Below, piece after piece: positions 4,253 through 25,607 of a stretch of 64,000 bases of DNA (the stretch's first letter is position 1; each line of letters begins with the position of its first letter). The notes below the pieces were generated by a model. It was given only the letters and a program-made list of their open reading frames with translations, did not search any database and was not told the DNA's origin. Origin of the DNA: Lachnospiraceae bacterium (GTDB lineage Bacteria; Bacillota; Clostridia; Lachnospirales; Lachnospiraceae); contig JAFRUR010000092.1 in assembly GCA_017438775.1 (NCBI GenBank), positions 1 to 64,000 of the forward strand. The letters are read 5' to 3'. The translations under genes and the position numbers were made by a program.

Positions 4253-4324
4253 GGAAAAAGCCCTCCTGCTTCAAATTTACAGGACGGCTCTTTCAAATCC
4301 GCTGACACAATTCCGACAAAAACC

Positions 4325-6416: not shown

Positions 6417-6464
6417 GGGATCACCCGTTTCCGAAAGGCACACGGCCACGGACAGGACTGCGGC

Positions 6465-6498
6465 AAAACGTCCCCGAGATCACCGGATCCGGGGACGT
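6465..6498 (-). terminator. Hairpin terminator behind pgi
   Basis: Nine-base arms ACGTCCCCG (6468-6476) and CGGGGACGT (6490-6498), followed on the minus strand by four T. It lies about 28 bases behind the pgi stop. The T tract is short. Confidence 0.6.
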
Positions 6499-6525
6499 CT
6501 GCTCGCGGGTCCGCAGCCGCGTCTA

Positions 6526-7872: not shown

Positions 7873-7946
7873 ACGGTCCTCCTGTGCTCTGTGTCCGTGA
7901 CAGTTCGAAATGTGTTTCCGTGATTCGGCCCTGCGGCCGGCAGGTC

Positions 7947-9035
7947 TTAAAACTTCCGCCCCTTACCGCCGCCGCTGCGGGCGCTGTCAATCAGGTCCGC
8001 CACCACGCGCACGCCGTCCGACTGCGCGGCGCCTTTCATGGCCGCGGCATATCTTTCGCGGTCCTCATACAGCGCGAAGACGCGGTCCGACAGGATGTGC
8101 GGCTCCGTGATCTCCTCTTCCTCCAGGACCATGGAAAAGCCCTGCTTTTCGAAGGAGCGGGCGTTTAAGATCTGGTCCCCGCGGCTGGCCGTCTTCGGAT
8201 ACGGGATCAGCAGGTTGGGCTTGCCGAGCGCCAGCAGCTCGCAGATGACGTTGGCGCCCGCGCGGGAGATAAAGACGTCCGCCGCGGCGTAGTAATCCGC
8301 GAGTTCCTCGTTGGCGAACTCCTGCTGCACGTAGCCGGGCGTGCCGTCGAGCTCCGGCGCGAGGTTCCCCCTGCCGCACAGATGCAGGACGTCAAACTTC
8401 TCCAGCAGCGTGGGCAGCACCGCGCGCACGGCCTTGTTGACCGCCACGGACCCGAGGCTCCCGCCGATGATCATCAGCACCGGCTTCTCCCCGGAAAAGC
8501 CCGCGCGGGCCAGTCCCGCCTCGCGGCTCCCGGACAGGAGGTTCGCGCGGATCGGCATGCCGGTCAGGACCGCCTTGTCTTTGGGGAGGTGCTCCAGGGT
8601 CTCCGGGAAGTTGCAGCAGACCGTGGTGGCCGTCGACAGACTCAGCTTGTTGGCCAGGCCCGGCGTCAGGTCCGCCTCGTGGATGACCACGGGGATGTGC
8701 AGGCCCTTCGCGGCCCGCACCACGGGCACGGCCACGTAGCCGCCCTTGGAGAAGACCACGTCGGGGCGCTCCGCCTTCAGGATTTTTTTGGCCTCTCCGA
8801 AGCCCTTCAGGACCCGGAACGGATCCGTGAAGTTCTTCCAGTCGAAATACCTGCGGAGCTTGCCGGAGGAGATGCCGAGATAGCGGATCCCCTCGCGCTC
8901 CACGAGGCCCTTTTCCATGCCGTTGTACGACCCGACGTAGACGATGTCGTAGCCGCGGGCCTTAAGTTCCGGGACCAGCGCCAGGTTGGGCATCACATGC
9001 CCGGCCGTGCCGCCTCCCGTCAGAAGGATCTTCAT
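7947..9035 (-). CDS. murG: MurG, lipid II GlcNAc transferase
   Basis: A 362-aa GT28 enzyme that adds GlcNAc from UDP-GlcNAc to undecaprenyl-PP-MurNAc-pentapeptide (lipid I), making lipid II on the inner face of the membrane. The N-terminal glycine-rich loop ([15 protein letters not shown]), [30 protein letters not shown] and [24 protein letters not shown] blocks identify it. The ATG overlaps the stop of the upstream TSCPD gene in ATGA, and AAGGAGG lies nine bases upstream. It is unusually far from a dcw cluster and shares an operon with pgi. Confidence 0.97.
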
Positions 9036-9289
9036 ACCTGCGCCGCCTCCTTCATGTGCAGCTCCAGGGCCCGGGCCAGCTGGTCCGGGCAGGAAGTCCC
9101 GCGCCCTGCGCAGTCGATGCCGCGCAGGAGGCGAATCACCTCTTCCACGGGGCGTCCCTCCACGAGGCGCGCGACGCCCTGGGTGTTGCCGTCGCAGCCG
9201 CCGTCAAAACGGACGTTGTGCACGATCCCGTCCGTCACCTCAAAACCGACCGCGCGGGAACAGGTCCCGCGGTTCATGTATACTGCCAT
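9032..9289 (-). CDS. TSCPD-domain small protein (TIGR03905 type)
   Basis: An 85-aa protein matching the small single-domain TSCPD family, which takes its name from the TSCPD motif seen here near residue 65 (RGTSCPDQLAR). Conserved CDGNTQGVARLVEGRP and DCAGRGTSC segments are present. The function of free-standing copies is unknown; the same domain occurs at the C-terminus of some ribonucleotide reductases. It starts behind AAAGGAGAACAC and is the first gene of the TSCPD-murG-pgi operon. Confidence 0.85.
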   Translation of the reverse strand: MAVYMNRGTCSRAVGFEVTDGIVHNVRFDGGCDGNTQGVARLVEGRPVEEVIRLLRGIDCAGRGTSCPDQLARALELHMKEAAQV

Positions 9290-9344
9290 GTGTTCTCCTT
9301 TGAATGTCCGTCACCCTTCGGATGACACAGATTCTTACATATAC

Positions 9345-9373
9345 ATTTTACCACAACCCGGGGGCGCTTTCAA
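9345..9373 (-). promoter_or_regulatory. Promoter of the TSCPD-murG-pgi operon
   Basis: TTGAAA (9373-9368), 17-base spacer, TAAAAT (9350-9345) preceded by TGTGG (extended -10). About 55 bases before the first ATG. Confidence 0.7.
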
Positions 9374-9432
9374 GGAGATTGCGCGCCGCGGGCCGCCGCG
9401 GCATCCCGCCGCCAAACGACCTCGCGGCCACG

Positions 9433-9460
9433 AAAAATGCCGGGGCCCGTCGGCCCCGGC
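9433..9460 (-). terminator. Terminator of the BspA-like gene
   Basis: GC-only arms GCCGGGGCC/GGCCCCGGC (9439-9460) with a CGTC loop, followed on the minus strand by five T. About 60 bases behind the stop. Confidence 0.85.
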
Positions 9461-9520
9461 GCAAAGAGGATGGCGGCGGGGATCTCTCCCCGCCGCCTCA
9501 GTCATCTGCCGGTCCCGGTT

Positions 9521-12500
9521 TCAGTGCTGGAAATATGCCTTCGCGGACCGGCTGTACTTCAGGACCGCACGGATCAGGGTCTTGAAGTTTTCATCGGTGG
9601 ACTTCTCCAGACGGTTGAAGAAGTAGTTCTCCAGGCCATACAGGATCGTGTCGCTCACCTTCTGATCATTCGCGTCGATGAACCACGCGCGCACCTGCTG
9701 CCCCATGTCCTTGGCCGCCACGCCCGCGAACGACAGTGCGTACTCGTGATTTCCCTCGTCGTACAGGGCGTCCGTGGCGTTCAGGGTCTCGGTCTTCGTG
9801 CTGCCGTCCACGGAGGTGTACTGCAGGCGCAGCCGCACGTCCTCGGGCGAAACGCCCTCCGCCAGCTCGAAGTAGTACTTGGGTTCGATGGTATTGCCGA
9901 AGACCGCGATCTTGCCGGTCCAAAGCACCATTGGCGTCCCGGACAGAGGTGCCGTGCCCGCCTCCGGCACGCCCTCGTTCGTGATGTCGGCCTGCGTTCC
10001 CAGGGCCTGCTGCGCCGGCGTGAGATCCGCGTTCACGGGTGCGTTCGTCCGGTAGTTGAAATAGGTCTGCGCCGCCGCGCCGTAGTTCAGCATATCCACA
10101 AGAAGGGTCTTAAAGAACGGTTTGGTACTCTTTTCCAGCCGGCTGCGGGCGTAGTCCGCCACGCTGTAGGCGTCCCACTCGGATTCGAAGGCAGCCGGCT
10201 CTTCTCCCGGCGCGCCGGGCATCTCTCCCACCAGCTTCACGCGCACCTCGTCGCCCATCTGCTTCGCGGCGATGCCCTTGAAGACGAATTTGTGTTCCGT
10301 GATCCCGGCCGTCGTCCCCGTGGTGTAATTCGTGATCTCGAAGGTCTCCACGGTCTTCGAAGACCCGTCCGCGTTCCAGACGTCCTTCTCTCCGACCAGT
10401 TTGAACGTCGCGCCCTCGGGGATGGCGTCCGCCTCGATGTAATAGTTGATGGCCAGGTCGTTGCCGAAGGACGCGGAGTGGGCGAAGTCGACGGGCAGAA
10501 TGCCTCCGGGCAGATACGCCACCCAGGTGACAGTGCCGTCATAGTCCCGCCGCACCTCTTCGGTCCAGGTCTCATCGCCCCAGGGGTAGTATGCCGTGAA
10601 CTCCGACCGGCTGAACGAGGTATCCGTGAACCTGGGCGCCTCGCCGCAGAAGGTGACCTTTTTGAGCGAGGAGCATATACAGATACAGTACGCTCCCACA
10701 CTGCTCACGGAGGCCGGGATCGTCATTTCTTCGGCCTTCAGCAGATCGTAGAAGAGATAATCCCCCAGTCCTCTCACGCCGTCCTCGACCACGACCGACG
10801 TGATCTCATCTCTGCGGTCATAGAAGGAAGGATAGGCCGTGGGATAGTCCCAGCTCTCCCCCGAGCCGAAGACTGTCATGACGCCCTCCGCGAGTCTCCA
10901 GAAGACGGTATTTCCGATGCGGTTTTCCATCGGCACGGCCACCCAGGTGATGGTCCCGCCGTAGTTCTGACGCACCGACTCGGTCCAGGTCGCATCGCCC
11001 TCCGGATAAAACGCGTCGGCCGTCACGTCCGCGAACGTGCCGTCGGCAGCAATCGTCGGCGCACTGCCCAGAAACACGACGGCTTCCAGACAGGTGCACT
11101 GTCCGAAGGCGCGGTAGCCGATCGACGTCACCGTCTCCGGCACCACAAGGCGGAAGACGGACGAGCAGCCGTAAAAGGCTTCGTTTCCGATGGTCGTCAG
11201 CCCCGACGGCATCGTGATCTCGGTCATCCGTGAGCACATGAAGAACGCATCCTTCCGGATGACCGTCACGGTCGAGGGAATCGTAAAGCCGAAGAATCTT
11301 CCTCCCGGACAGCAGATGATCTCCGTTTTCGCTTTGTTCGCCAGGACGCCGTCGATGTCTGTGAAGTACGGGCTGTCAGAGCCGACTTCGAATTCCGTCA
11401 TGGCATCGCAGTAGGAGAACGCAAAGTCTCCGAGAGAACGCACGTCCTCCGGGATGAAGATCCTCGGCAGACTGGTGCACTGGAAAAATGCGCGGGCCCC
11501 GATGGTTTCCAGTCCGGCCGGAAGCGTTGCCTCCGTCAGATTCGGGCAGGACTCAAACGCCATGTTGCCGATCCTTGTCACGCCCTGACCGACTGCCACG
11601 TAACGGATCTCGCTTCTCCTGCCGGCCCAGGGGGCGGGAGATGTTCTCGTGAAATCCGTCATTGCCCCGGTGCCGAAAATGCTCAGCAGACCCTCCTCCA
11701 GCGTCCACCAGACGCTTTCGCCGCAGGAATTCCCGGAGGAACACGGGATCCAGGTCAGGCGGCCGCCGTAATTCTGGCGCACGGAATCCGTCCAGCTGGC
11801 ATCGTCAGCGGGATACAGGACATCCGCCGTCACCTCGCAGAATGCGTAGCTCATGAGCGCGGAAGGCGCACTTCCCTGAAAGACGACTGTCGCCAGATTG
11901 CGGCATTCGTTGAAGGCGTACGCCTCCACCGTTTCCACCGAGTCGGGAATCGTGACCGACATAAGGCCGCCGCAGTTGCCGAAGGCATATGCCTTAATGG
12001 TGGTCACGCTGTCCGGAATAACATAGGCGCTGCTGTATGCGTTGGGATAGGCATACAGCGTCGTCCGGAGCTTGTTCATCAGGACGCCGTCCTCCGATCC
12101 GAAAACCGTGTTTGCGGGATCCACATAGATGGTGTTCAGGTCCGGGCAGCGGAGGAAGGCAAAATTCCCGATCTGCTTCACGCCGGGAGAAATATACACA
12201 GAATCCAGCTCCGGCATCTCGTAAAACGCCCGCGTGCCGATTCGGGTCACGCCGCTTCCGATCTCGGCGTAATTGATTTTGTTCCGGACCCAGTACCACG
12301 GCTGGGCGGAGGCGGAAGAGAAGTCCCACATGTCGCCGGATCCGGCGATGTAGAGATCGTTGCCCTCCTGGTACCACGTCGCGCTGTCGCCGCATGTGTC
12401 GTTCAGGACCCAGGTGAGGTGGCCGCCGTAGTCCTGACGCGATTCCTCGTCTTCCCAGCACTCCAGCGGGGGATACATCACCGTGGCGGTGACGTTCAGA

Positions 12501-13627
12501 AACACAGAGTCCGGATCCGCCACGATCTCCGGATCCTCTCCCAGGGTCGGGAGTTCTCCCTGAAACGTGATCTGCGTCAGCCCGGCACCGTCAAAGACAT
12601 TTCTCTGGATGTCGGTCACCCCGCCCGGAATCGTGATGCTCTGCAGGCTGCTGCAGTCATCGAAGGCGTAGGATTCGATCATTGTCAGACCCGTCGGCAG
12701 ATCGATGCCGGTCAGTCCGGTGCTGCCGGTGAACGAAAACCTTCCGATCGTCTTCACGGTGCCGGGACACGTATAGTTCCCCGTCTTTCCGGTGGGATAA
12801 CCGATGAGCTTCGTCTTCTGTTTGTCGAACAGGACGCCGTCCACCGACGTAAAACCGGTGTTTCCCGAATCGACGTTGATGGCCGTCAGCGCCTTGCACC
12901 TGCGGAAAGGGCTTTCGCCGATCGTATTGACCGTCGCGGGAATCGTCACTTCCGTAAGCGAGCTGCAGTGGCCGAACGCATTTCCGCCGATGTATTTCAG
13001 GTTGGACGGGAACGAGATCTGCGACAGCTTTGAGGCGTACTGAAAGGCGCCGGTGCCGATGTGTGTGATGCTGTCCGCGAACAGGATGGTCGTGAGATTG
13101 CTGAACCCGACGAAGCCGAGCCGGCCGGCGGACGTCACTCCCTCCTCAAACTTCAGTACCTTGACGTCCTCGCTGTATGCGCTGTAGGGGCGATTTCCCG
13201 ACGAATAAAGGTCCTGCATCGGGCCGGTGCCGGCGATGGTCATCAGGCCGCTGCTGTCCAGAGTCCACGTCACATTGTCGCCGCAGGTACCGGACGCGAC
13301 AACGCTCCGGGTCCCGGAGACGTCCTGCGTCTGTGCCGCGGGCTCCGGAAGCAGGTCCGGCGCAGGCTCCTCCGACCTGTCCGCACCGGTCAGTCCGGCA
13401 TCGTCCGGGGCTGGTTCGGCCTCTTCTTCGGCCACTTTCTCCGGCAGCGGTTCCTCCTGCGGCGCCTGCACAGTTTCTGCAGAGCCCCGCGCCGTCTCTT
13501 CCCACGCCTCCTGCACCTCCGAAACGGGGGCCGCCACGCCTGCCTCCGCCGCCAGCGCCGCGTTCGGCACCGCAGAGACAGCCAGCGCAAGCGCAAGACA
13601 CAGGCTCAGGATCTTTCTCATGTTCAT
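9521..13627 (-). CDS. Secreted BspA-like leucine-rich repeat protein
   Basis: A 1368-aa secreted protein. A signal peptide (MNMRKILSLCLALALAVSA..., cleavage near AALAAEAG) is followed by an acidic Glu/Pro-rich linker and four similar blocks, each opening with a CGDNVTWTL-like strand pair and continuing with LRR_5 (BspA type) repeats such as CSSLTEVTIPATVNTIG. Residues about 1050-1368 hold two related modules with a FGN...YY start, an IAAKxMG centre and an LNYGAAAQTYF-like end; the same pair ends the protein at 15108-17330. BspA repeats are known in host-protein binding and surface adhesion; the binding target here is unknown. No LPXTG, SLH or choline-binding anchor is seen, so the C-terminal modules may attach the protein. 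The start at 13627 gives the clean signal peptide. Confidence 0.9.
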   Translation of the reverse strand: MNMRKILSLCLALALAVSAVPNAALAAEAGVAAPVSEVQEAWEETARGSAETVQAPQEEPLPEKVAEEEAEPAPDDAGLTGADRSEEPAPDLLPEPAAQTQDVSGTRSVVASGTCGDNVTWTLDSSGLMTIAGTGPMQDLYSSGNRPYSAYSEDVKVLKFEEGVTSAGRLGFVGFSNLTTILFADSITHIGTGAFQYASKLSQISFPSNLKYIGGNAFGHCSSLTEVTIPATVNTIGESPFRRCKALTAINVDSGNTGFTSVDGVLFDKQKTKLIGYPTGKTGNYTCPGTVKTIGRFSFTGSTGLTGIDLPTGLTMIESYAFDDCSSLQSITIPGGVTDIQRNVFDGAGLTQITFQGELPTLGEDPEIVADPDSVFLNVTATVMYPPLECWEDEESRQDYGGHLTWVLNDTCGDSATWYQEGNDLYIAGSGDMWDFSSASAQPWYWVRNKINYAEIGSGVTRIGTRAFYEMPELDSVYISPGVKQIGNFAFLRCPDLNTIYVDPANTVFGSEDGVLMNKLRTTLYAYPNAYSSAYVIPDSVTTIKAYAFGNCGGLMSVTIPDSVETVEAYAFNECRNLATVVFQGSAPSALMSYAFCEVTADVLYPADDASWTDSVRQNYGGRLTWIPCSSGNSCGESVWWTLEEGLLSIFGTGAMTDFTRTSPAPWAGRRSEIRYVAVGQGVTRIGNMAFESCPNLTEATLPAGLETIGARAFFQCTSLPRIFIPEDVRSLGDFAFSYCDAMTEFEVGSDSPYFTDIDGVLANKAKTEIICCPGGRFFGFTIPSTVTVIRKDAFFMCSRMTEITMPSGLTTIGNEAFYGCSSVFRLVVPETVTSIGYRAFGQCTCLEAVVFLGSAPTIAADGTFADVTADAFYPEGDATWTESVRQNYGGTITWVAVPMENRIGNTVFWRLAEGVMTVFGSGESWDYPTAYPSFYDRRDEITSVVVEDGVRGLGDYLFYDLLKAEEMTIPASVSSVGAYCICICSSLKKVTFCGEAPRFTDTSFSRSEFTAYYPWGDETWTEEVRRDYDGTVTWVAYLPGGILPVDFAHSASFGNDLAINYYIEADAIPEGATFKLVGEKDVWNADGSSKTVETFEITNYTTGTTAGITEHKFVFKGIAAKQMGDEVRVKLVGEMPGAPGEEPAAFESEWDAYSVADYARSRLEKSTKPFFKTLLVDMLNYGAAAQTYFNYRTNAPVNADLTPAQQALGTQADITNEGVPEAGTAPLSGTPMVLWTGKIAVFGNTIEPKYYFELAEGVSPEDVRLRLQYTSVDGSTKTETLNATDALYDEGNHEYALSFAGVAAKDMGQQVRAWFIDANDQKVSDTILYGLENYFFNRLEKSTDENFKTLIRAVLKYSRSAKAYFQH

Positions 13628-13696
13628 CTTCACTTCAGGAACACCTCTCTTCCGATTCGGCTGTGTTTCCGACAGCCACCGCGAGTTCCGATATCC

Positions 13697-13753
13697 GAAA
13701 AATAAGCGCACCGCTCGACAGGGGCATCCTGCCTCTGTCCAAGCGATGCGCTT
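13697..13753 (-). terminator. Long-stem terminator in the leader of the BspA-like gene
   Basis: On the minus strand AAGCGCATCGCT... pairs with ...AGCGGTGCGCTT, with an inner stem GGACAG/CTGTC, followed by ATTTTTC. It sits between the promoter at 13826-13854 and the gene start at 13627, so it would end transcription before the gene unless regulated. Confidence 0.75.
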
Positions 13754-15107: not shown

Positions 15108-17330
15108 TCAGTTGCTCTCGAAGTATGCCTTGGCGGATCTGCCGTACTTTAAGGCCGCGCGGAGCAAGGCTTTGAACCTGGCGTTCCCGGAACCGTTCAA
15201 GCGCCCGAAGCAGTAGTTCTCGATGCTGTAATAAAGCGTGTCGCTGGCCTTGGCCCCGGTCGACTCAACGAACCACGCCTTCACCTGCTGCCCCATGTCC
15301 TTGGCCGCCACGCCCGTATAGGACAGGGCGTATTCGTCGTTCTGCGAATCGTATACCGCGGCCCAACCCCTCAGCAGGGCGCTCTTCTTCGTGCCGTCCA
15401 CCGAGGTGTAGGACAGGCAAAGATGCACTTTGCTGACGTCCGTCCCTTCAGCCGGCCGGAAGTAATACTTGAGTTCCACGCTGTTGCCGAACACCGCGCT
15501 TTTTCCCAGAATGGTGACCTTCGGCGTCACGGGGAGCGGCGTCACCGTCGCGGCGGGAACGCCCTCGCTCGACACGTCGGCCTGGGTGCCCCAGGCCCGC
15601 TGCCGGTCGGTGAGGCTCGCGTTCACGAGAGCGGACGGGTGATGGCGGAAATAGGTCTGCGCCGCCGCGCCGTAGTTCAGAAGATCCACCAGCAGGGTCC
15701 GGAACGCGGCATCCTTCGTCTTGGACAGACGGCTGTAGGCGTATGTCTGCACGCTGTATTCGTCCACGGCGGATTCGTACCGGACGCCGCCCTTGAAGAT
15801 GACCAGCTTCGCGCGGACGATCTCGAACATCTCTTTGGCGGCGATTCCGCTGTACACGAACTTGTGCTCGGTGATGCCGTCCGTGACAGCCGTCGTGTAA
15901 TCGGTGATCGTCTTCGTCCGCACCGGATTCGTGCCGTCCGAGGTCCACAGGAGCTGCTCGACCTCCAGCCAGAACTGCGCGCCGTCCAGCAGGGGGAAAT
16001 CATCGACGTAGTAGTTGATCGCCAGGTCGTTGCCGAAAGAGCAGCTGTGGCCGAACCTGACCTGCAGCTCCGGCGTGAATTCGTAATGGACCCGGCATAT
16101 GTCGGCCGGGTAACCCGTCGGGAGAGTGTCGGTCAGGTCTTCCCCGTTCAGAGAAATGCGGAACTTCTGCTCCGGCGACAGGGGGCCGGGCAGACCGCCG
16201 CCCTTCAGATAATATCCGGGCTTCGTCTCCACGGAAAAATCCAAATAATAGGTCCTGCCGGCCTCCAGAACAGCGGTTCTTCCCAGGATCACCCGGTTCC
16301 CGTCCTGCATGCTCGAGATCTCGACATCCCCAAATCCGTATCTGCCGGGCGCCCCCGACTGCAGCCGCTGTCCGGGATCCCCCAAAGCTTCGCCCGCCTC
16401 CGGCATGTCGAACACACAGGAAACCTCCGGAATCTCCTCGGAGCCCTGCGCGAAAACCGCCGTGACCGTCACGTCGTCATTGACCTGGAAGGACGTTTCT
16501 GCCGCATATTTGTCCGCGAAAACTGTTCCGGAATCGCTCGCGGTCCATTCCACGAAGCGCCAGCCCCGGGCCGGGACCGCGCGCACGTTCACCCACTCGG
16601 ACCAGGCCGCCTCGGTCGCATCCGCGAACACCTCGCCCTCTCCCTGGGCCGCCACGGAGATCTGCTTGATTCCGCCGTAGCCGGGATTGAGCGCCACGTC
16701 TTCTCCCGGCATCACGAAGATGATGGGATTCGCCTTGTGATCGATGGTGACGTACTGTCCCGAGGAAAGGCCGCGGTACTCGAGTTTGACCAGCCGCAGA
16801 CTGCTCGTTTTCATGCGCACGTTCAGCGTGACCAGGTCTCCCTCGCGCGCCTGTGCCGGCGACGCGGTGATCTCCGCGACCCAGCTGTTCACGGGAGTGA
16901 TGCTGTACAGCGGCATTTCCAGCGGAAAATATAACCGGATACGGTTTGAGTCACCGTACCAGCACCCCAATTCGCCAAAATCGTAAATGATCTCGGGATC
17001 TGAAGCCAGCGCATAGCCTGCCGGCGGCGAGATGAACCAGATCTCAATGCCGTACCGTTTTCCGGTTTCGAATACGTCGCTGTCCTCCAGCGAGGAGCCT
17101 GCCACATCCCAGACTAAGACAGACTGGAATGTGCAGTCTCCCCCGTGACTCGTGACCCGCAGGGCGCTTCGGAACTCCCCTGCGGTCAGGCCGGCGGCAG
17201 GCGCTGTGCCCGTGACGGTGAGCCGGTCGATCTGATTGTCCGCACGCGCGGTCAGCTCTGCACCCGGAAGAATCAGGAGCAGGAGCGCAGCCAGCAGCGT
17301 GCCGAGCAGGATGGAAAGGGCCTTTTTCAT
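15108..17330 (-). CDS. Secreted protein with InlB-type repeat and duplicated C-terminal module
   Basis: A 740-aa secreted protein. The signal peptide begins MKKALSILLGTLLAALLLLI and probably ends at LTARADNQ. The middle holds a divergent InlB B-repeat (residues about 220-300, with GWRFVEWTASDSGTVF) flanked by beta-rich segments. Residues about 430-590 and 612-740 are two copies of the FGN...YY / GIAAKxM / LNYGAAAQTYF-like module, clearly homologous to the end of the BspA-like protein at 9521-13627. This points to a common surface function or anchoring mode. AGGAGG precedes the ATG at 17330; the upstream codons in frame lie inside the ribosome site. Function is unknown. Confidence 0.88.
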   Translation of the reverse strand: MKKALSILLGTLLAALLLLILPGAELTARADNQIDRLTVTGTAPAAGLTAGEFRSALRVTSHGGDCTFQSVLVWDVAGSSLEDSDVFETGKRYGIEIWFISPPAGYALASDPEIIYDFGELGCWYGDSNRIRLYFPLEMPLYSITPVNSWVAEITASPAQAREGDLVTLNVRMKTSSLRLVKLEYRGLSSGQYVTIDHKANPIIFVMPGEDVALNPGYGGIKQISVAAQGEGEVFADATEAAWSEWVNVRAVPARGWRFVEWTASDSGTVFADKYAAETSFQVNDDVTVTAVFAQGSEEIPEVSCVFDMPEAGEALGDPGQRLQSGAPGRYGFGDVEISSMQDGNRVILGRTAVLEAGRTYYLDFSVETKPGYYLKGGGLPGPLSPEQKFRISLNGEDLTDTLPTGYPADICRVHYEFTPELQVRFGHSCSFGNDLAINYYVDDFPLLDGAQFWLEVEQLLWTSDGTNPVRTKTITDYTTAVTDGITEHKFVYSGIAAKEMFEIVRAKLVIFKGGVRYESAVDEYSVQTYAYSRLSKTKDAAFRTLLVDLLNYGAAAQTYFRHHPSALVNASLTDRQRAWGTQADVSSEGVPAATVTPLPVTPKVTILGKSAVFGNSVELKYYFRPAEGTDVSKVHLCLSYTSVDGTKKSALLRGWAAVYDSQNDEYALSYTGVAAKDMGQQVKAWFVESTGAKASDTLYYSIENYCFGRLNGSGNARFKALLRAALKYGRSAKAYFESN

Positions 17331-17386
17331 GGGAGCCTCCTCTTTCTCGCGCAAAAAGCGCGGGGACGGGGATTTAATCTGACCCT

Positions 17387-17449: not shown

Positions 17450-18193
17450 TCAGTGGCTGCATACGCTGATCAGATTAAGTGCGATGATCAGCAGGCCGAC
17501 CGCCGCCATCAGGGGACGCTCCGGGACTCTTTTGCAGATGCGGGACGCCAGCGGGGCCGCGATCACGCTGCCGATCACAAGACCCGCGATGATACTGCCG
17601 CAGCTTCCGATGTCCCGGATCAGGATCACGAACGCCGTCGCCTCCGCAGCCGTGACCGCGAACTCCGCAGCGTTCACAGTGCCGATCGACCGCTTTGCAT
17701 CTTCTCCCGCCGCGATCATGGAAGACGTGACGACAGGCCCCCAGCCGCCTCCGCCGACCGCGTCGAGAAAGCCTCCCGCAAGGCCCAGGGGAAGAATGAG
17801 CCTGCCGATTCCGCGTCCGCCCGGACGCCCCATGACGGCTCTGCGGAGGATCACGATTCCCATGAGGATGAGATAGATCTCGATGGCCGTTTCGATCCTG
17901 TCCCCGGCCGATGCGGCAAACCAGGCCCCCGCAGCGCCGCCGATGACCCCGGGGACCATCAGACGCAGCAGGAGATTCTTATTCACATTCCGTATCCTGT
18001 AATGCGAGATCCCCGAAACGAGCGAGGCCGGTATTTCGGCAATATGAATCACAGCGCTCGCAAGCGCAGACTGCAGGCCCGCAAATGTCCTTAGGAAGGT
18101 GCGCCCGCTGACACCGTATGCCATGCCCAGGGAGCCGTCGATGATCTGCGCGGCAAATCCGATTGCAATATAGATGAGTATTTCCCCGTTCAA
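17450..18193 (-). CDS. TauE/SafE family permease linked to the PAPS genes
   Basis: A 247-aa polytopic membrane protein of the TauE/SafE (DUF81) family, with two homologous halves and about seven to eight hydrophobic segments. Conserved features are the opening GFAAQIIDGSLGMAYGVSG and the repeat GLAGGFLDAVGGGGWGPVV. Members move sulfite, sulfonates, sulfate or other anions. The TTG start (18193-18191) overlaps the TGA of cysNC in the sequence TTGA, behind an AGGGGAG ribosome site, so translation is coupled. That linkage suggests a role in supplying sulfate to, or removing a sulfur anion from, the PAPS pathway; the direction of transport is an inference. It is the last gene of the cysD-cysNC-permease operon. 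Confidence 0.85.
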   Translation of the reverse strand: MNGEILIYIAIGFAAQIIDGSLGMAYGVSGRTFLRTFAGLQSALASAVIHIAEIPASLVSGISHYRIRNVNKNLLLRLMVPGVIGGAAGAWFAASAGDRIETAIEIYLILMGIVILRRAVMGRPGGRGIGRLILPLGLAGGFLDAVGGGGWGPVVTSSMIAAGEDAKRSIGTVNAAEFAVTAAEATAFVILIRDIGSCGSIIAGLVIGSVIAAPLASRICKRVPERPLMAAVGLLIIALNLISVCSH

Positions 18194-20013
18194 TCGAATC
18201 TCCCCTTCAGGCTCTCGAGAAGTTCTGCCGCCAACGCTGCGGCATCCGCGCCGCTCGTATCGATCTCGGCATCCGACGCAGCCGGCGCTTCGTAAGGACT
18301 GTTGATGCCGGTGAAGTTGGGAATCTCCCCCATCCTCGCCTTTTTGTACAAGCCCTTCACGTCCCGCTTTTCGCATTCCGCGAGGGGAGTGCTCACATAG
18401 ATCTCCATGAACCGCTCCGCCCCGATGATCTCTCTGGCCATGTCCCGGTCCGCTGCGAACGGAGAGATACAGGCCGCAAGCACAATGATTCCGGCATCGT
18501 TCAGCAGTCGGGATATCTCCGCGATCCTCCGGATGTTTTCGGTCCTGTCGTAGTCGTTGAAACCGAGGTCTTTGCTGATGCCGAGCCGCACGTTGTCGCC
18601 GTCGAGCAGCATCGTATGCCGGCCCTCGGCCGCCAGCAGTTTCTCAAGCTCGTTGGCAAGAGCGGATTTCCCGGAGCCCGAAAGCCCCGTGAACCACACC
18701 GTCCTCGGCGACTGACCGAGCGCCCTTGCCCGGTCCTCCGGGGTCACGTCGCAGCTTTGCCGGGCCACGTTTTCCGTTCTTCTCAGGGCAAAGCGTATCG
18801 TGCCGCACCCGGCCGTGCTGTTGGTGACCTTGTCGATCAGGATGAACCTGCCCATGGCAGGATGCCGGTCGAACCGGTCAAAGACCAGATCTTCATGACA
18901 CACGATATCTGCGCAGGCAAGGCCGTTCTTTTCCACCCTGCGGCAGGCGAGGTGCTTTCCCGTGTCCGGATCCACGCCGTACTTGAGTCGCAGGATACCG
19001 GCGTTCACGGTCTGGGAGGCAAGCTTCAGGAGGTAGTTTTTCCCTTCCATGAGTGGCTTTTCGTCCATCCAGAGGATATCCGCCTGCAGCATCCGGGCCT
19101 GCTTCAGATCTGTGCCCGATGCCAGGACGAATCCGCGGGAAACATCCAGATCGTCGGTCAGCGATACCGCCGCGGCTTCCCCTCTTACGGTGCGGGGCGC
19201 CGTTTTCCCCGAAACGAGAATCCCGTTTACCTTCGTTGCAACGGCCCCGGGATATACGGTCACATCCTCTCCTGCGCCGATTTCTCCCGAAACGACGTTT
19301 CCCTGGAGATAGCGGATGCCGCCGGCCCGCGCCACCCTCTGGACCGGCATGAGAAAACCCTGCTCCTCCCGCGCCTCGACGTCGACCGTCTCCAGATACC
19401 CGAGAAGCGTCGGTCCCTCATACCACGGCATGTGCGCCGACCGGACCGCGACATTATCCCCGCAGAGCGCGGAAAGCGGGATCATCTGGGCGCCGTGATG
19501 CGGAATGTCCGCCACAAAAGATTCGATGCCGGCCCGAATCCGATCAAACACGTCCTTCCGGTAGCCGGCCGCATCCATCTTGTTGACCGCAAAGACGTAC
19601 TCGCGGATGCCCATCATCGCGCAGATGCGCAAATGCCTGCGGGTCTGGGTCGTAACGCCCTTTTCCGCATCGATCAGCAGCACCGCGAGATCGCTCTGCG
19701 ATGCCGCGACCGCCATATTCCGCGTATATGCCTCATGGCCCGGCGTGTCCGCCACGACGAACGACCGTTTCTCGGTAGCAAAATACCGGTAGGCAACGTC
19801 AATGGTGATACCCTGCTCGCGCTCGGCGCTCAGCCCGTCCAGCAGGAGAGAGTAATCGAGCACGCCGTCTTCCCGCATCGCACGGCTCTCCAGTTCGAGG
19901 GCCCTCTTCTGGTCGGCAAAAAGCATCTTCGCGTCGTACAGGAGATGGCCGATCAGTGTGGATTTGCCGTCGTCGACGGAACCGCAGGTCATGATCTTCA
20001 GTACCGATTCCAT
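18190..20013 (-). CDS. cysNC: Fused sulfate adenylyltransferase subunit 1 / APS kinase
   Basis: A 607-aa bifunctional protein. Residues about 1-420 are the CysN GTPase of ATP sulfurylase (P-loop GSVDDGKSTLIGHLL, switch region EREQGITIDVAYRYF, DTPGHEAY, NKMD). Residues about 435-607 are APS kinase (P-loop GLSGSGKSALANELE, DGDNVRLGI, and EIYVSTPLAECEKRDVKGLY). With CysD it turns sulfate into APS and then PAPS. The fusion corresponds to NodQ/RaxQ-type enzymes. The ATG at 20013 overlaps the cysD stop in TGATG. No APS/PAPS reductase or sulfite reductase is in the window, whereas a PAPS-dependent sulfotransferase is divergently encoded next door, so PAPS is probably made for sulfation rather than assimilation. 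Confidence 0.95.
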   Translation of the reverse strand: MESVLKIMTCGSVDDGKSTLIGHLLYDAKMLFADQKRALELESRAMREDGVLDYSLLLDGLSAEREQGITIDVAYRYFATEKRSFVVADTPGHEAYTRNMAVAASQSDLAVLLIDAEKGVTTQTRRHLRICAMMGIREYVFAVNKMDAAGYRKDVFDRIRAGIESFVADIPHHGAQMIPLSALCGDNVAVRSAHMPWYEGPTLLGYLETVDVEAREEQGFLMPVQRVARAGGIRYLQGNVVSGEIGAGEDVTVYPGAVATKVNGILVSGKTAPRTVRGEAAAVSLTDDLDVSRGFVLASGTDLKQARMLQADILWMDEKPLMEGKNYLLKLASQTVNAGILRLKYGVDPDTGKHLACRRVEKNGLACADIVCHEDLVFDRFDRHPAMGRFILIDKVTNSTAGCGTIRFALRRTENVARQSCDVTPEDRARALGQSPRTVWFTGLSGSGKSALANELEKLLAAEGRHTMLLDGDNVRLGISKDLGFNDYDRTENIRRIAEISRLLNDAGIIVLAACISPFAADRDMAREIIGAERFMEIYVSTPLAECEKRDVKGLYKKARMGEIPNFTGINSPYEAPAASDAEIDTSGADAAALAAELLESLKGRFD

Positions 20014-20924
20014 CAGAAATACCCTTCCCTTTTTCGCTTTTCCATGCTGTACATGCCGGCGTCCCCATCGATGATTCGGCTGGTGCGCTCCGACCTGACC
20101 GCTGCGCAGGTCTCTGCGTACACGGCCTCGGCATCCGCGGCGTTCGATTCGATCCCGCCTGTCAGCGGATAGCATCCCAGTGTCCGGAACCGGACCTTCT
20201 TCCTCTCGATCCGCTCCCCCGGCAGGATCTCCATGCGGTCGTCGTCCACCATGATGAGATTGCCGTTTCTTTGTACGACCGGCCTCTCTTTTGCAAAATA
20301 CAGCGGCACGACCTCGATCTTCTCACGCACGATGTAGGCCCAGATATCCCGCTCCGTCCAGTTGGAAAGCGGAAAGACCCGGAGGCTCTCGCCCGGCCCC
20401 AGCCGGGTATTGTAAAGATCCCACAGCTCCGGCCTCTGCGCCCGGGGGTCCCATGTGTGATGTTCGTTTCGGAAGGAAAAGACGCGTTCCTTCGCGCGGG
20501 ATTTTTCCTCGTCCCGCCTGCCTCCGCCGAAAGCGGCGCGGAACCCGTACCGGTCCAGCGCCTGCCGCAGGGCCTCCGTCTTCATGACGTCCGTATAGAC
20601 GGCGCCGTCGCGGACAGGGTCCAGACCCAGCCGCAGGCCTTCCTCGTTGGTATAGACGATGAGCTCGATCCCCTCCTCCCGCGCGATGCGGTCACGGAAT
20701 TCGATCATCTCCCGAAATTTCCACGTCGTGTCGATGTGCAGCAGCGGAAAGGGAATCGGCTCCGGATAAAAGGCTTTCTTTGCCAGGTGCAGCATGACCG
20801 AGGAATCCTTTCCGATCGAATAGAGCATGACGGGATTCTCTATCTCTGCCGCAACTTCACGCATGATATAGATTGCCTCGGATTCGAGGCGGCTGAGTTG
20901 TTCCTGATTGCTTATCTTTGTCAT
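20013..20924 (-). CDS. cysD: Sulfate adenylyltransferase subunit 2
   Basis: A 303-aa adenylating subunit of ATP sulfurylase, an N-type ATP pyrophosphatase (PP-loop [14 protein letters not shown] near residue 36). [49 protein letters not shown] and the C-terminal TLGCYPLTG blocks match the family. With CysN it forms APS from ATP and sulfate. No clear ribosome site precedes the ATG at 20924; the start is fixed by the family N-terminus ([11 protein letters not shown]). It is first in the cysD-cysNC-permease operon and divergent from the PqqD-like gene. Confidence 0.95.
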
Positions 20925-21023: not shown

Positions 21024-21293
21024 ATGAAACTGAAAGACGATTACATCCTGTATAATGCCTCCGAGGAAGAGACGATCGCGGTGGCGACCGGCGATGAGGC
21101 CGAGCGCTTTTGCGGTCTCCTGCGCGCCAACGCGACGGCGGCCGATATCCTGGAATACCTGAAGGAGGAAACCACGGAGGACGAGATCGCAGCGCGCATG
21201 CTCGCGGCGTATGACGCGCCGGAAGAGGACATCCGCGCGGGAATTGCCGACGTTCTGAACACCCTGCGGTCGGTCGGCGCGCTAGAGGAATGA
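21024..21293 (+). CDS. PqqD-like RiPP recognition protein
   Basis: An 89-aa protein with the PqqD fold pattern: N-terminal strands (DDYILYNASEEETIAVATG), then helices (ILEYLKEETTEDEIAARML, YDAPEEDIRAGIADVLNTL) and a short C-terminal acidic end. PqqD-type domains are RiPP recognition elements that bind leader peptides and present them to tailoring enzymes. The ribosome site GTGAGG and the promoter at 20908 support the start. Its stop overlaps the sulfotransferase start in ATGA, so the two are made together. The precursor-like peptide at 22516, with a YxxPxL leader motif, is the obvious client. The family call is firm; the client is inferred. Confidence 0.85.
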   Translation: MKLKDDYILYNASEEETIAVATGDEAERFCGLLRANATAADILEYLKEETTEDEIAARMLAAYDAPEEDIRAGIADVLNTLRSVGALEE

Positions 21294-22414
21294 AGCGCGA
21301 ACCCCCGGCCGGTACGGCCCCCCCTTCGCATTCGTCCGAAAGGCGCCGTGGGAAGCGGATCCTGCTGCATGTCGGCATGCTCAAGACCGGAACCACCTCG
21401 CTGCAGAGTTTCCTGCAAAACAGCAGGGACGACCTGGCCGCGCGGGGAATCGGGTATTATCTTCCCCGGTTCGATGCCCATCCGTCGTTTTCCAACGCCG
21501 GGTTCCTCTGCCGGCGCTCCCTCTCGGAGGCGATAGGCCTCCCGCCGGAGCCGTCCTCCGACCGGGAAATGGCCGCTTTCTCCGCCTATGCCGGGGCCTT
21601 TGACACCCTGATTCTGTCCGAGGAGTTTCTGTCGGAACCGGGGGCGGAAGTGCCGGGCTACTGGGAGATCGTCCGGAAAAACCTTGCGGAGCTTGCCGGA
21701 GAGCACACGCAGATCGACGTGCTGCTCTTTGTCCGGCGGCAGGACGACTGGATCCTGTCCCGGTGGAAGCAGCAGGTGCTCAACGCCTTCTATGAAGACA
21801 GACCCACGCCCCCGGACATCCCGGATTTTACGACTTTCGCCGGCCAGGCAAAGGCCCGTGGCCTGCTGGACTATGACCGCGCGGCGGATCGGCTTGCGAA
21901 AGTGTTCGGAAGGGAGCATGTGACCGTCTGCGCGTACGGCGCCGCTGACGGGTCCTCTTTTGATGCGGTCGGAGCCTTCCTCGGCGCGGCCGGCATCTCC
22001 GCCGATGTCCCGGCCAAGCCCCTGAAAGAGAACCGGTCCCTTTCCGCGCGTGCCGTCAACGCCCTGCTGCGGATCAACGGCAGCGAACCGGCGTCCATCC
22101 CCCGCAGCCGCCTCCACCGCGCCGCGAGGACATTTTCCCGGCTGTATCCGGAGGAGCAGGCCGTCTATCCCGTCAGCCGGGACGAGCGTATCCGGTTTCT
22201 CTCCGAATTCGAGGAATCCAATCAACGCCTCTCCCTTGCGTACAATAACGGTATCCCGCTGTTCTCCCGCGTCGTTCCGGCCTGCTTTGCATGGCCGGAC
22301 GATCCGAAGCAGACCTGCGACGATGCCGCGCTTCTCTTAAAGCTCGCGACCCTTTCCCGGGAGACCGAAGCAGCCCTTCTGCGCGCCGCACGAAGCACAT
22401 CCGGAGAGCCGTGA
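21290..22414 (+). CDS. PAPS-dependent sulfotransferase, likely acting on the RiPP
   Basis: A 374-aa protein with a sulfotransferase P-loop-like 5'-phosphosulfate motif (HVGMLKTGTTSLQSFLQ, residues about 27-43) and a probable 3'-phosphate site (LLFVRRQDDWILSRWKQQ, about residue 148), as in PAPS sulfotransferases. It would transfer sulfate from PAPS to a hydroxyl. It is translationally coupled to the PqqD-like gene, faces the PAPS-forming operon and is followed 101 bases later by the Cys/Tyr-rich peptide, so peptide tyrosine is the best guess for acceptor. A sugar placed by the neighbouring glycosyltransferase is the alternative. It has no signal peptide or membrane segment, so it acts in the cytoplasm. 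Confidence 0.82.
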   Translation: MKREPPAGTAPPSHSSERRRGKRILLHVGMLKTGTTSLQSFLQNSRDDLAARGIGYYLPRFDAHPSFSNAGFLCRRSLSEAIGLPPEPSSDREMAAFSAYAGAFDTLILSEEFLSEPGAEVPGYWEIVRKNLAELAGEHTQIDVLLFVRRQDDWILSRWKQQVLNAFYEDRPTPPDIPDFTTFAGQAKARGLLDYDRAADRLAKVFGREHVTVCAYGAADGSSFDAVGAFLGAAGISADVPAKPLKENRSLSARAVNALLRINGSEPASIPRSRLHRAARTFSRLYPEEQAVYPVSRDERIRFLSEFEESNQRLSLAYNNGIPLFSRVVPACFAWPDDPKQTCDDAALLLKLATLSRETEAALLRAARSTSGEP

Positions 22415-22448: not shown

Positions 22449-22477
22449 TTGATTTTTGGAACGAACTTTGCTAGTAT
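22449..22477 (+). promoter_or_regulatory. Promoter of the precursor peptide gene
   Basis: TTGATT (22449-22454), 17-base spacer, TAGTAT (22472-22477); the overlapping TATAGT (22475-22480) is an alternative -10 and resembles the one used by the PqqD-like operon. It lies about 40 bases before the ATG at 22516, with AAGGAG at 22497-22502. A separate promoter fits the need to make a precursor in excess of its enzymes. Confidence 0.55.
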
Positions 22478-22515
22478 AGTATTGCTTTTGATCTTATAAG
22501 GAGCGTACCTGCTTT

Positions 22516-22662
22516 ATGGAAAAGAAGAAATATGTGAAACCTGTTCTGTCTGTGCTCGAGCTGTCGGAAGACGTCATCGCCGCCTCCCTCTGCCCCGGAG
22601 ATTCTCCCTGCTACTGCAGCGGAGACTGCGGCGGCTATTGCTACGACTGCATGTCGGTATAA
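22516..22662 (+). CDS. Candidate RiPP precursor peptide, 48 aa, Cys/Tyr-rich core
   Basis: A 48-residue open reading frame too short for standard gene calls. Residues 1-24 are a Lys-rich, then acidic leader with Y6-V-K-P9-V-L11, a YxxPxL motif like the one that recognition domains bind in lasso peptide leaders, and a DVIAAS junction (19-24). The C-terminal half carries six Cys (26, 32, 34, 38, 42, 45) and three Tyr (33, 41, 43), plus Gly, Ser and Asp; Y43 is next to D44. This composition suits thioether formation by a radical SAM enzyme and sulfation of tyrosine. AAGGAG lies upstream with a longish spacing of about 13 bases. Its last 22 bases overlap the 3' end of the convergent glycosyltransferase gene. 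No paralogue was seen in the window. Translation and modification are inferred. Confidence 0.75.
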   Translation: MEKKKYVKPVLSVLELSEDVIAASLCPGDSPCYCSGDCGGYCYDCMSV

Positions 22663-23816
22663 CAGGAGCCGTTCTTTCCGGGTGTGGCACGGTTCGCGCT
22701 TCCGTCCCCACGGATGCGGTACAGATACAGATTCTGTATCTTTTTTGCGGCATCGGCGACGTGAAAGCCGGCGGCCGCGATCTCTTTTCCGCGCGACATA
22801 CGATTTGTTTTGCCCTGCAGGATCTGCAGGGCTTTTTTTGCCCAGATCTCCGGCCCTTTCTCCAGCGGCAGCATGTGCGCCAGGTCCGTGATCCTGACCT
22901 GGTCCGTCACCTCGTCCGAGATGAGACACGGCAGGCCGGACGCCTGCGCCTCGAGAAGGACGAAGGGGAATCCCTCCCGCAGAGACGGAAACAGGAGCAG
23001 ATCCGCGGCGCTGTAGAGCATATCGATGGAATCGTCCGTCTGAACAAAGCGCACCCGCGCTTCCAGTCCATACTCCCGGATCGCTCCGCGCAGCTTCGGA
23101 TCGGTATGATTCAGGCCGGCAAACAGCAGCACGCTCTCCGGCGAGAATTTTAACAGTTCACGGAAGACGCGCAATGCGAAGATGGGATTCTTGACCTCAT
23201 GGATGTTGGCAAAAAACCCCAGCACGCTGGTCTCTTCCGAAATGCGCAGCCTGCGCCGAATCAGCTCCCGGTAAAGCGGCCGGAAGGCAAACCGGTCCGG
23301 ATCGATCCCGTTGGGGACCACCTCAAAGGGCATACCCCGAAAGCCTTCTTCCCCGGCCAGATCCGAGCAGGCCAGGCGGTCGAAGCGGTCGCCGCGAATC
23401 AATTCCAGACGCTCCATGACCTCCGGCTCGGCCGGGCGCTCCTTCTGGTGCTTCGGCCGGCCCGTGTGAAACTGGATCACCTTGACCGGAAGACCCATAC
23501 GGTCGGCGAGCGCCAGCGGATAGGTCATCTGATGCATGTCGTGCACATGCACGCCGCAGAGATCCGGAATGGAGGCGAGGATGTCCCTCAGCTTTTCCCG
23601 GCTCGCTTCGGGAATCCCGTCCCTTGTGAAATCCAGATAATGGAAGCTGCTTCCGGCCGTATCAAACTGTGCGGGCAGCGGTCTGTCCCGATACTTCTCC
23701 ATCATCAGAAAATCATACCGGAACAAATCGTGATCCATATAGGGATAGGTGTTTTTGATAAATGTGTTGATCCCGCTGGCAAACGGCGTCAGTCCGATCA
23801 GCAGAATTCTGTTCAT
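22641..23816 (-). CDS. GT4-type glycosyltransferase in the RiPP cluster
   Basis: A 391-aa GT-B glycosyltransferase of family 4 type. The N-terminus reads MNRILLIGLTPFASGINTFI, the nucleotide-sugar domain has VVPNGIDPDRF and the family E-x7-E segment (LREGFPFVLLEAQASGLP). It transfers a sugar from a nucleotide donor in the cytoplasm. The start at 23816 follows GGAAGACGGGTCGT; the long in-frame extension upstream is out of character. It lies 61 bases behind the radical SAM gene on the same strand and ends inside the 3' end of the precursor gene. It may glycosylate the peptide, or belong to surface polysaccharide synthesis and be here by chance; the location favours the former. Confidence 0.82.
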   Translation of the reverse strand: MNRILLIGLTPFASGINTFIKNTYPYMDHDLFRYDFLMMEKYRDRPLPAQFDTAGSSFHYLDFTRDGIPEASREKLRDILASIPDLCGVHVHDMHQMTYPLALADRMGLPVKVIQFHTGRPKHQKERPAEPEVMERLELIRGDRFDRLACSDLAGEEGFRGMPFEVVPNGIDPDRFAFRPLYRELIRRRLRISEETSVLGFFANIHEVKNPIFALRVFRELLKFSPESVLLFAGLNHTDPKLRGAIREYGLEARVRFVQTDDSIDMLYSAADLLLFPSLREGFPFVLLEAQASGLPCLISDEVTDQVRITDLAHMLPLEKGPEIWAKKALQILQGKTNRMSRGKEIAAAGFHVADAAKKIQNLYLYRIRGDGSANRATPGKNGSCYTDMQS

Positions 23817-23877
23817 ACGACCCGTCTTCCGTTCCATCGCTTTCCAAACTGTCCATTCGGCACACAGACCGCTTCTG

Positions 23878-25509
23878 TCAGATCGCGGCCTCTTCCTGAC
23901 GCACCACCCGGTCAGCCCTGTAGTATCCGGGGAGCGTGATCTCCAGATTTCTTTCCGCAAACTCCCGCGTAGGCTCTGTGACGAGAACCTTCTCTCCGCC
24001 GACCGCGAGAAGCACCGGCGGCAGCCGCTCCTCATCCGCGAGCGCCTCCAGGGCGCGCTTTTCCAGCGCAAGCATCTCGCGCCGGCAGTCCCGGCAGACA
24101 GCCGGACATCCGACAAAGTCCGTGCATACCGGGAGGAACGGACACGCCCGGCACCTTGCGTCCTGAAGACGCGTCTTTGCCGGGTGCGCCTCCCGCCGAA
24201 TCCTCTGCCCGGAAAAGACGGTGCCGACCACCGGTGCATCGCTCACGTGCTCGCAGAGGCAGCACTCCCCGCCGGGCTTGATCACAGGTCCCGCCGCGGG
24301 GTCGTCCGCCATGCAGTAGTACCGCTTCAGGTGTCCGACCCTGTCGTACGGCCGCTCTTTCTTTCTGCTCTTCTCCTTCTCTCCGGAGGTCTCTCCTGCC
24401 CCGGAAAGCTCTTCCCATCCGGCATCCGTCTCCTCCCTCTCTTCCCGAATCACGATGCTGTCGATTCCGGAGGGCGGCTCTTCGCCGGTTTCCATTCGTT
24501 TTCGGTTGAAGGCCCGCAGGGTCTTTTCGAGCTCCTCCATCGCGTCATAGAATGCCGCGTCGTCCCGCTCACGGACGTCTCCCTCTTCCACAAAAATCGA
24601 GTGCGCGTAGAGCCGTATCCCGGTCTCGTCCGCGAACTCCCGGGACAGTTCTTCAACGAGGGCGTGCATCTCCTGAAGGTTTTCCTCTTCCACATTCAGG
24701 CGGATATTGACGCGGACCCTCTGCTCCAGCAGCGCACGGATCCCGTCGAGAACGGCCCGGTACGGCGATCCCGGAAAATCTTTGTAACGCTTGCGGGCGC
24801 AGTACATATCCTCCCTGCCGTCCAGCGTGATCTGAATGTTCTGAAGACGCCAGTCCTCCCGCATCTTTTTTGCCCGCGCCGGCGTGATGAGCGACCCGTT
24901 GGAGATCATGGAGGAACGGTAATCAACGCCCTTTCCGCGCAGCGCACCGCAGATGCGGTCGATCGTCTTCTCTCCCGCCATCGGCTCCCCGCCGAACCAG
25001 TGAAGTTCGATCGGAGCCCCCTTCCTGCAGGTGCTTTCAATGTACCGGACCGTCTCTTCGATGACGTCTTCCGTCATGCTCTCCGGCGCTATGCCCTCCT
25101 CGTAACAGTAGACGCATCTGGCGTTGCAGGCCGTGGTCGGAAGAATCGTGTAGCCGAGATACCCGTCTTTTCTTTTTGTCATCCGGCGAAGGAGCGTCAG
25201 AACCTTTTCGAACCGGTCAGCCTCGTCGATGCCTTCCTTTACGAGAAAGTCACAGCGGACGAGCGCGGACATCTCCCGGTCCGCCGGGTCAAACCGAATC
25301 TGAGAGGGCTCTCCCGTTTCCGGCTGAAACAGGAAAAAGTATTCCGTCTCAATGCACTGGCGGGTGAAGGTGTTCCAGACCACCTTTCTCCCGCCGATTA
25401 TCAAAGGAAGCGCAAACTGCGACGGCCTGAGCAGGCAGCCCTCCCTGATTCCTTTATTCTCTCCCAGCAGTGCGCCGACTTTCGGGTCCGGTCTCTGTAA
25501 TGTGATCAT
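23878..25509 (-). CDS. Radical SAM/SPASM peptide-modifying enzyme
   Basis: A 543-aa protein. Residues 1-115 form an N-terminal region of the kind found in peptide maturases. The radical SAM cluster motif is C128-x3-C132-x2-C135 (TTACNARCVYCYEEG), followed by WFGGEPMAG and SNGSLIT. A charged insertion (residues about 335-395) precedes a SPASM-type Cys-rich end with C399, C416, C417, C419, C453, C456, C462, C468, C472 and C475, for auxiliary 4Fe-4S clusters. Such enzymes make thioether or carbon-carbon crosslinks in RiPPs, as in sactipeptides and ranthipeptides. A client with six Cys is encoded nearby. The start at 25509 follows GAGGACCGCAGGT. The type of crosslink cannot be read from sequence. 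Confidence 0.9.
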   Translation of the reverse strand: MITLQRPDPKVGALLGENKGIREGCLLRPSQFALPLIIGGRKVVWNTFTRQCIETEYFFLFQPETGEPSQIRFDPADREMSALVRCDFLVKEGIDEADRFEKVLTLLRRMTKRKDGYLGYTILPTTACNARCVYCYEEGIAPESMTEDVIEETVRYIESTCRKGAPIELHWFGGEPMAGEKTIDRICGALRGKGVDYRSSMISNGSLITPARAKKMREDWRLQNIQITLDGREDMYCARKRYKDFPGSPYRAVLDGIRALLEQRVRVNIRLNVEEENLQEMHALVEELSREFADETGIRLYAHSIFVEEGDVRERDDAAFYDAMEELEKTLRAFNRKRMETGEEPPSGIDSIVIREEREETDAGWEELSGAGETSGEKEKSRKKERPYDRVGHLKRYYCMADDPAAGPVIKPGGECCLCEHVSDAPVVGTVFSGQRIRREAHPAKTRLQDARCRACPFLPVCTDFVGCPAVCRDCRREMLALEKRALEALADEERLPPVLLAVGGEKVLVTEPTREFAERNLEITLPGYYRADRVVRQEEAAI

Positions 25510-25549
25510 ACCTGCGGTCCTCAGCCTTCTTCCTTCCGCGTTTCGTTCC

Positions 25550-25607
25550 AAATAGAAAAGGATGCATCGAGCGGCCCCTGTGCGAACCGGGCCGATCCAA
25601 CACATCC
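25550..25607 (-). terminator. Terminator of the DUF5711/kinase/regulator operon
   Basis: Outer arms GGATG/CATCC with G-U pairs, inner arms CGGCCC/GGGCCG (hairpin 25560-25607), followed on the minus strand by TTTTCTATTT. It separates the response-regulator operon from the radical SAM gene, which begins only 40 bases further on. Confidence 0.75.

Follow-up and report, generated by a model that had tools for sequence, protein, structure and literature searches.

What does the short open reading frame at 22516–22662 on the forward strand of this 64,000-nt stretch of a genome from a gut-type Lachnospiraceae bacterium (hereafter the window) encode, and which neighboring genes could act on its product? 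The frame starts with ATG and specifies 48 aa (MEKKKYVKPVLSVLELSEDVIAASLCPGDSPCYCSGDCGGYCYDCMSV), and the ORF listing returned the frame, the YxxP leader, the six Cys and the three core Tyr at exactly the positions given in the original prediction. The leader (approximately residues 1–24) contains Y6xxP9xL11 and DVIAAS (19–24, with the pattern D19VI21..S24), and the core (approximately 25–48) contains Cys 26, 32, 34, 38, 42 and 45 together with Tyr 33, 41 and 43.

The leader family and expression signals of the peptide gene

We found that the leader belongs to a clostridial family with the pattern YxxP...D[VI]IxxS. Members were first collected with an eight-leader profile to which the window peptide contributed; a second profile, built from 28 members from other genomes only and leaving the window peptide out, ranked the window frame 1st of 1332 stop-to-stop frames (E = 1.7e-4, against E = 3.3 for the 2nd), a test that is not fully independent, as the window peptide had entered both the motif and the profile used to assemble the family at the outset. 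The other members are far closer to each other than to the window peptide, whose match is weaker. The motif Y..P.{5,14}[DE][VIL][IV].{1,2}S had 0 short-frame matches in 1.4 Mb of reversed sequence, and the leader motif was absent from the short frames of 80 loci around sulfotransferase relatives but occurs in short frames around relatives of the window RRE.

With the eight-leader profile, family peptides were found in 17 genomes besides the window’s own, nearly all with a good ribosome-binding site; a match in G291 is not counted among the 17, because its frame belongs to an ATP synthase. A relative of the window RRE was present in 15 of these 17 genomes vs 34 of 379 others (Fisher p = 3e-13, an approximate value since the peptide and RRE searches sampled overlapping, perhaps not identical, genome sets), and many of the peptides lie ≤12 kb from an RRE gene. 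The window peptide retains the Ser that closes the leader motif, and this residue is invariant in the first eight aligned members, partly by construction because the collecting motif demanded it.

Cores in the family are otherwise different from that in the window. None of 26 distinct members from other genomes has Cys in the core, compared with six in the window peptide, so that judged from sequence its six-Cys core is exceptional. A search of 145 relatives with the 48-aa peptide gave only chance-level matches, the best at E = 0.005; in no case was the core the same, and it is not conserved among them.

The expression signals named in the original prediction survived in part. AAGGAG is present upstream of the peptide ATG at 22498–22503, but at a rather distant 12-nt spacing. 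The promoter-like pair, TTGATT at 22449–22454 and TAGTAT at 22472–22477 with 17 nt between them and TGC before the −10 (an extended −10), is readable at 8 of 12 matching positions but falls below the threshold of a consensus scan, which returned 0 sites. Because this strict scan finds none, the forward-strand element read at 22449–22503, a weak possible promoter plus AAGGAG, is only suggestive. The terminator-like hairpin 3' of the peptide (22718–22740, forward strand) is also weak, since the scan found 3 sites vs 1.8 expected and shuffled sequences gave about as many. Overall, we consider 22516–22662 very probably a RiPP precursor gene.

RRE, sulfotransferase and PAPS supply

Two genes upstream of the peptide gene lies a discrete 89-aa RRE of the PqqD family (21024–21293, forward strand; PF05402, E = 1.6e-11, 44.8 bits). 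It is 32–54% identical to RREs in LPP-type operons, and a profile search of the PDB linked it to TbiB1 and TfuB1, two lasso RREs. The proposal that the YxxP leader is read by a PqqD-type RRE is supported by these matches and by the co-occurrence of the leader family with this RRE subfamily, the binding itself being a prediction; we regard it as highly likely, from sequence, that the window RRE reads the leader. Relatives of the window RRE normally reside in kinase–RRE–signal peptidase–ABC operons that match the LPP RiPP gene set. Of 74 stretches around such relatives, some of which overlap at a single locus, 54 contained an HprK-like kinase, 48 a SipW-like peptidase, 23 an ABC exporter, 17 a nucleotidyltransferase and 0 a sulfotransferase. 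The host genome itself has one RRE on the window’s contig (C52) and two on contig C94.

Between the RRE and peptide genes is a 374-aa protein (21290–22414, forward strand) assigned by motifs and AlphaFold fold as a PAPS-dependent sulfotransferase, the ATG of which overlaps the RRE stop (ATGA at 21290–21293). The protein has no Pfam or NCBIfam match of its own; Sulfotransfer_1 was weakly matched by 4 of 32 relatives, and a PDB sequence search was likewise weak. KTGT and RRQDxxxxS motifs are common to the window protein and 31–32 relatives, with KTGT and S157 invariant or near-invariant. The AlphaFold model (pLDDT 85.7) aligned with human 3-OST-3, NDST1 and bacterial 3rnl at Z ~14, and with the tyrosylprotein sulfotransferases TPST1/2 at Z ~9, below the glycan enzymes. 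As modeled, the protein carries the fold and motifs of a PAPS-dependent sulfotransferase, and this predicted fold is nearer to heparan-sulfate 3-O/N-sulfotransferases than to tyrosylprotein sulfotransferases.

Genes for making PAPS are adjacent on the reverse strand. CysD, the ATP sulfurylase small subunit (20013–20924; TIGR02039/NF009214 above cut-off), is divergent from the RRE gene and is accompanied by CysNC, a fusion of ATP sulfurylase large subunit and APS kinase that makes PAPS (18190–20175; NF004035, 750 bits, above cut-off), with its true start probably near 20020, and by a TauE/SafE-type transporter (17450–18376; PF01925, E = 8e-29). cysD-cysNC is also close by in roughly half of 80 sulfotransferase relatives, and likewise at L034, which makes sulfation the natural reading for the family. 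In the host genome (98% complete), neither a PAPS/APS reductase passing its cut-off nor another member of the window enzyme’s sulfotransferase family turned up, such that few other known outlets for PAPS are present, and PAPS from CysD/CysNC is probably meant for the window sulfotransferase, as far as gene content indicates.

The combination of RRE, sulfotransferase and peptide was found in no second genome in the collections searched, and neither was the RRE–sulfotransferase pair by itself, giving no sign that this arrangement is maintained and leaving its evolutionary support limited. There was no RRE in any of the 80 loci of sulfotransferase relatives, and these relatives may have polysaccharide as their substrate; a scan of genome contigs with the sulfotransferase alignment gave relatives at ≤32% identity, and the surroundings of all of them, including the best relative (L036), whose contig spans 3.1 kb, were free of RREs and leader-family peptides. 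Viral contigs gave no match, and plasmids only distant alphaproteobacterial ones. In the clostridial genomes at L043, L056, L065 and L072, 2–5 sulfotransferase genes of this family stand in a row, sometimes with cysD-cysNC.

Candidate sulfate acceptors and cross-links

Tyrosine sulfation, as originally proposed, is a possible outcome: genes for a sulfotransferase and PAPS-making enzymes flank that of the peptide, but the modeled fold resembles heparan-type enzymes more closely (Z ~14 vs ~9). A family 4 glycosyltransferase (GT4; 22641–23818, reverse strand, 23818 being the chosen ATG; PF00534, E = 4e-20) is encoded convergently with the peptide gene, the 3' ends overlapping by 22 nt. Given this glycosyltransferase and the glycan-type fold, a sugar may be the acceptor, and core Tyr and a peptide-linked sugar are about equal candidates. 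That either the peptide or a sugar upon it would be sulfated is likely.

Downstream, also convergent with the peptide gene and sharing no operon with it, is a protein resembling radical SAM peptide maturases, in which inspection by eye showed a cluster of Cys at the C-terminus (23878–25605, reverse strand; PF04055, E = 3e-15, above cut-off). It matches PDB 5wgg but scores 119.7 bits against TIGR04463, the cut-off of which is 525, and is below cut-off for PapB and other maturase equivalogs. Of the relatives recovered from the searched genomes, the closest is a paralog on C94 of the host genome, where its gene immediately follows that of an RRE; two leader-family peptides lie near it, and the tail of one carries two Cys (MKREYKEAAVEVVEFMNSNIIVTSDCPIKDENECGREERD). 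Other relatives are mostly in unrelated contexts. In this C94 stretch (L161, G000:C94:26500–40000), the second RRE and then the radical-SAM paralog occupy 6623–8455, with the leader-family peptides at 5717 (+) and 385 (−). The six-Cys core and the radical-SAM gene in the window, set beside other family members without Cys, suggest that core and enzyme fit together, and the likelihood that this enzyme cross-links the window peptide is, on these grounds, a little better than even.

Two further loci combine a radical-SAM gene with a Cys-containing peptide. Near a radical-SAM relative in G005 (L216, C46), a frame at 1857–1991 encodes a YxxP leader plus four Cys (MKYEKPDFSEVEVSTTQNTVDSSGKEGASQCSASCCWGEGCWWA), and at L050 a radical-SAM gene and a six-Cys SCIFF-like peptide (3639–5266; MKHIKTINRADLSATAKKGGCGKCQASCQSACKTSCTVGNQKCANNDDNK) lie upstream of a sulfotransferase, probably a common SCIFF system there by chance.

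Relation to known systems and a possible split pathway

The closest known family is LPP RiPPs, not lasso peptides. LPP RiPPs are linear polyphosphorylated peptides encoded by lppA-K-B-S-D-N in Paenibacillus alginolyticus (Nat Commun 2026, PMC13381572), in which the RRE binds YxxP, the kinase polyphosphorylates the Ser just after the cleavage site (Ser3 in Paenibacillus) and the SipW-like LppS removes the leader with RRE help (PMC13381572). Common to both are a discrete RRE beside the precursor gene and a short precursor with a YxxP leader and Ser ~18 residues after the Tyr; window-RRE relatives in the same family and order also accompany an HprK-like kinase, SipW-like signal peptidase, ABC exporter and nucleotidyltransferase. 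By contrast, the window has a sulfotransferase where a kinase or peptidase adjoins the RRE elsewhere, a Cys-rich core and a radical-SAM gene, and a leader that does not match the Bacilli consensus YxxPxVLxHQxIxFETxxS (PMC13381572) throughout. Neither “Clostridia” nor “sulfotransferase” occurs in the main text of that paper. No HprK-like kinase, MsbA-like exporter or NTP transferase was found among the flanking genes scanned, nor a SipW-like signal peptidase in the window; kinase, peptidase and exporter are on another contig.

This contig, C16, encodes a kinase (7339–8130), a SipW-like peptidase (8313–8771; 49% identical) and an ABC exporter (8768–10507) in the usual order, and an RRE is absent both from the 182-bp gap between kinase and peptidase and from the whole contig. 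The stretch (L228, G000:C16, 7339–10507) is an LPP-type operon lacking the RRE gene that its relatives have between kinase and peptidase, which raises the possibility of a split pathway. The simplest reading of this gene content would be that the C16 operon is served in trans by an RRE from elsewhere, and the RRE, sulfotransferase and peptide of the window may be combined with the peptidase and exporter of C16. The genome’s HprK-like kinases are one on C16 and one on C94, which also has an NTP-transferase-like frame seen by eye. A further C94 stretch (L167, G000:C94:67500–80500; 4543–10296, reverse strand) contains the third RRE, an ABC exporter, a different radical-SAM protein and an HprK-like kinase, and also codes for a 99-aa YxxP peptide (MKEQYVRPVVYVESF...).

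Three other systems are alike in part. Bacillota lasso peptides have a YxxP leader and a PqqD-type RRE matching TbiB1/TfuB1, and an HPr kinase and a sulfotransferase have been noted with some of their clusters (PMC4289311, PMC8498205), but the window peptide lacks Thr at the expected leader end. A scan of eight proteins encoded around the peptide gene revealed neither a macrolactam synthetase nor a B2 protease, and on this ground we rejected a lasso peptide. RaxX of Xanthomonas, sulfated on Tyr and in 2019 called the sole known bacterial tyrosine sulfation (PMC6637879), is similarly a small precursor beside a PAPS-dependent sulfotransferase, RaxST, with Tyr near an acidic residue; it differs in a double-glycine leader cut by RaxB, the lack of an RRE and reliance on housekeeping PAPS enzymes, and the predicted fold of the window sulfotransferase is nearer to that of glycan sulfotransferases. 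Ranthipeptides and sactipeptides (5wgg, PapB and the TIGR04463 group) share the radical-SAM maturase-like protein and Cys-rich core, but the window has a separate RRE, convergent gene order and a sulfotransferase, and scores below all family cut-offs. No report combining RiPP, radical SAM and sulfated or sulfotransferase appeared in the literature searched.

Starting from the computed leader family, RRE, sulfotransferase fold, PAPS enzymes, gene order and RRE-less C16 operon, we infer an action of the window enzymes on the peptide, an acceptor, cross-links and a split pathway as follows. Leader residues 1–24 would be bound by the discrete RRE (21024–21293), which would pass the peptide to the co-translated PAPS-dependent sulfotransferase, fed by CysD/CysNC; sulfate would be accepted by core Tyr (Tyr33/41/43) or by a sugar put on the core by GT4. 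The convergent radical-SAM enzyme would probably join some core Cys by thioethers, and the leader would be removed and the product exported by the C16 signal-peptidase-like protease and ABC exporter. An RRE-dependent, LPP-type RiPP, sulfated, cross-linked and processed in trans, is the best explanation as a whole and a fairly probable one. The specific course with RRE-guided sulfation on Tyr or sugar, radical-SAM cross-linking and peptidase and exporter supplied in trans from the RRE-less LPP operon is put forward tentatively. A leader acting as docking tag, an adjacent RRE and a sulfotransferase replacing the kinase together point to what is probably a new kind of sulfated, cross-linked peptide.

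The nearest competitor, a possible one, overlaps with this explanation and differs in what the RRE mainly serves: the radical-SAM enzyme would be the main maturase of a ranthipeptide or sactipeptide, and sulfotransferase and glycosyltransferase late tailoring enzymes. The six-Cys core, the maturase and 5wgg matches, the C94 paralog directly after an RRE gene and the G005 YxxP peptide with a Cys-rich end near a radical-SAM relative are consistent with this, whereas no maturase model is reached at cut-off and the gene is convergent to the precursor gene, in no shared operon. It is doubtful that the peptide is the RRE’s precursor while the sulfotransferase, merely in between, acts on something else such as a surface polysaccharide; its structural neighbors are glycan sulfotransferases, and many Lachnospiraceae-type genomes combine cysD-cysNC with a sulfotransferase gene, in some cases several consecutive ones, while lacking both RRE and precursor, but the ATGA overlap with the RRE gene, the location between RRE and precursor and the single family member in the genome argue otherwise.

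A plain LPP-type precursor, with Ser24 phosphorylated by the C16 HprK-like kinase and neither sulfation nor cross-links, would account for the conserved leader-end Ser, the kinase, SipW-like peptidase and ABC exporter of C16 and the parallel with Paenibacillus Ser3 (PMC13381572), yet is improbable given six core Cys where 26 distinct members from other genomes have none and a sulfotransferase in the place of kinase or peptidase. Least probable by far is a chance open frame: the frame is short, its promoter weak and its whole length not conserved in other genomes, but it lies beside an RRE, and we rejected chance on the first-ranked leader profile match (E = 1.7e-4) and the 0 matches in the reversed-sequence control.

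If the preferred explanation, a sulfated and cross-linked LPP-type peptide, is true, the locus would represent a pathway in which an RRE guides sulfation, a modification with very few documented cases among bacterial peptides; the LPP-type RRE module would then swap tailoring enzymes, and the family would extend to the clostridial side. Sulfated peptides can be potent signals, which would lend interest to an anaerobic producer. At L150, L162, L163, L165 and L166, leader-family peptides often adjoin genes whose large protein products are secreted and in some cases carry LRR-like repeats, and the family may be connected with the cell surface. The window also contains two large secreted-protein genes, at 9521–13711 and 15108–17354, with a common C-terminal SFGNDLAINYY domain.
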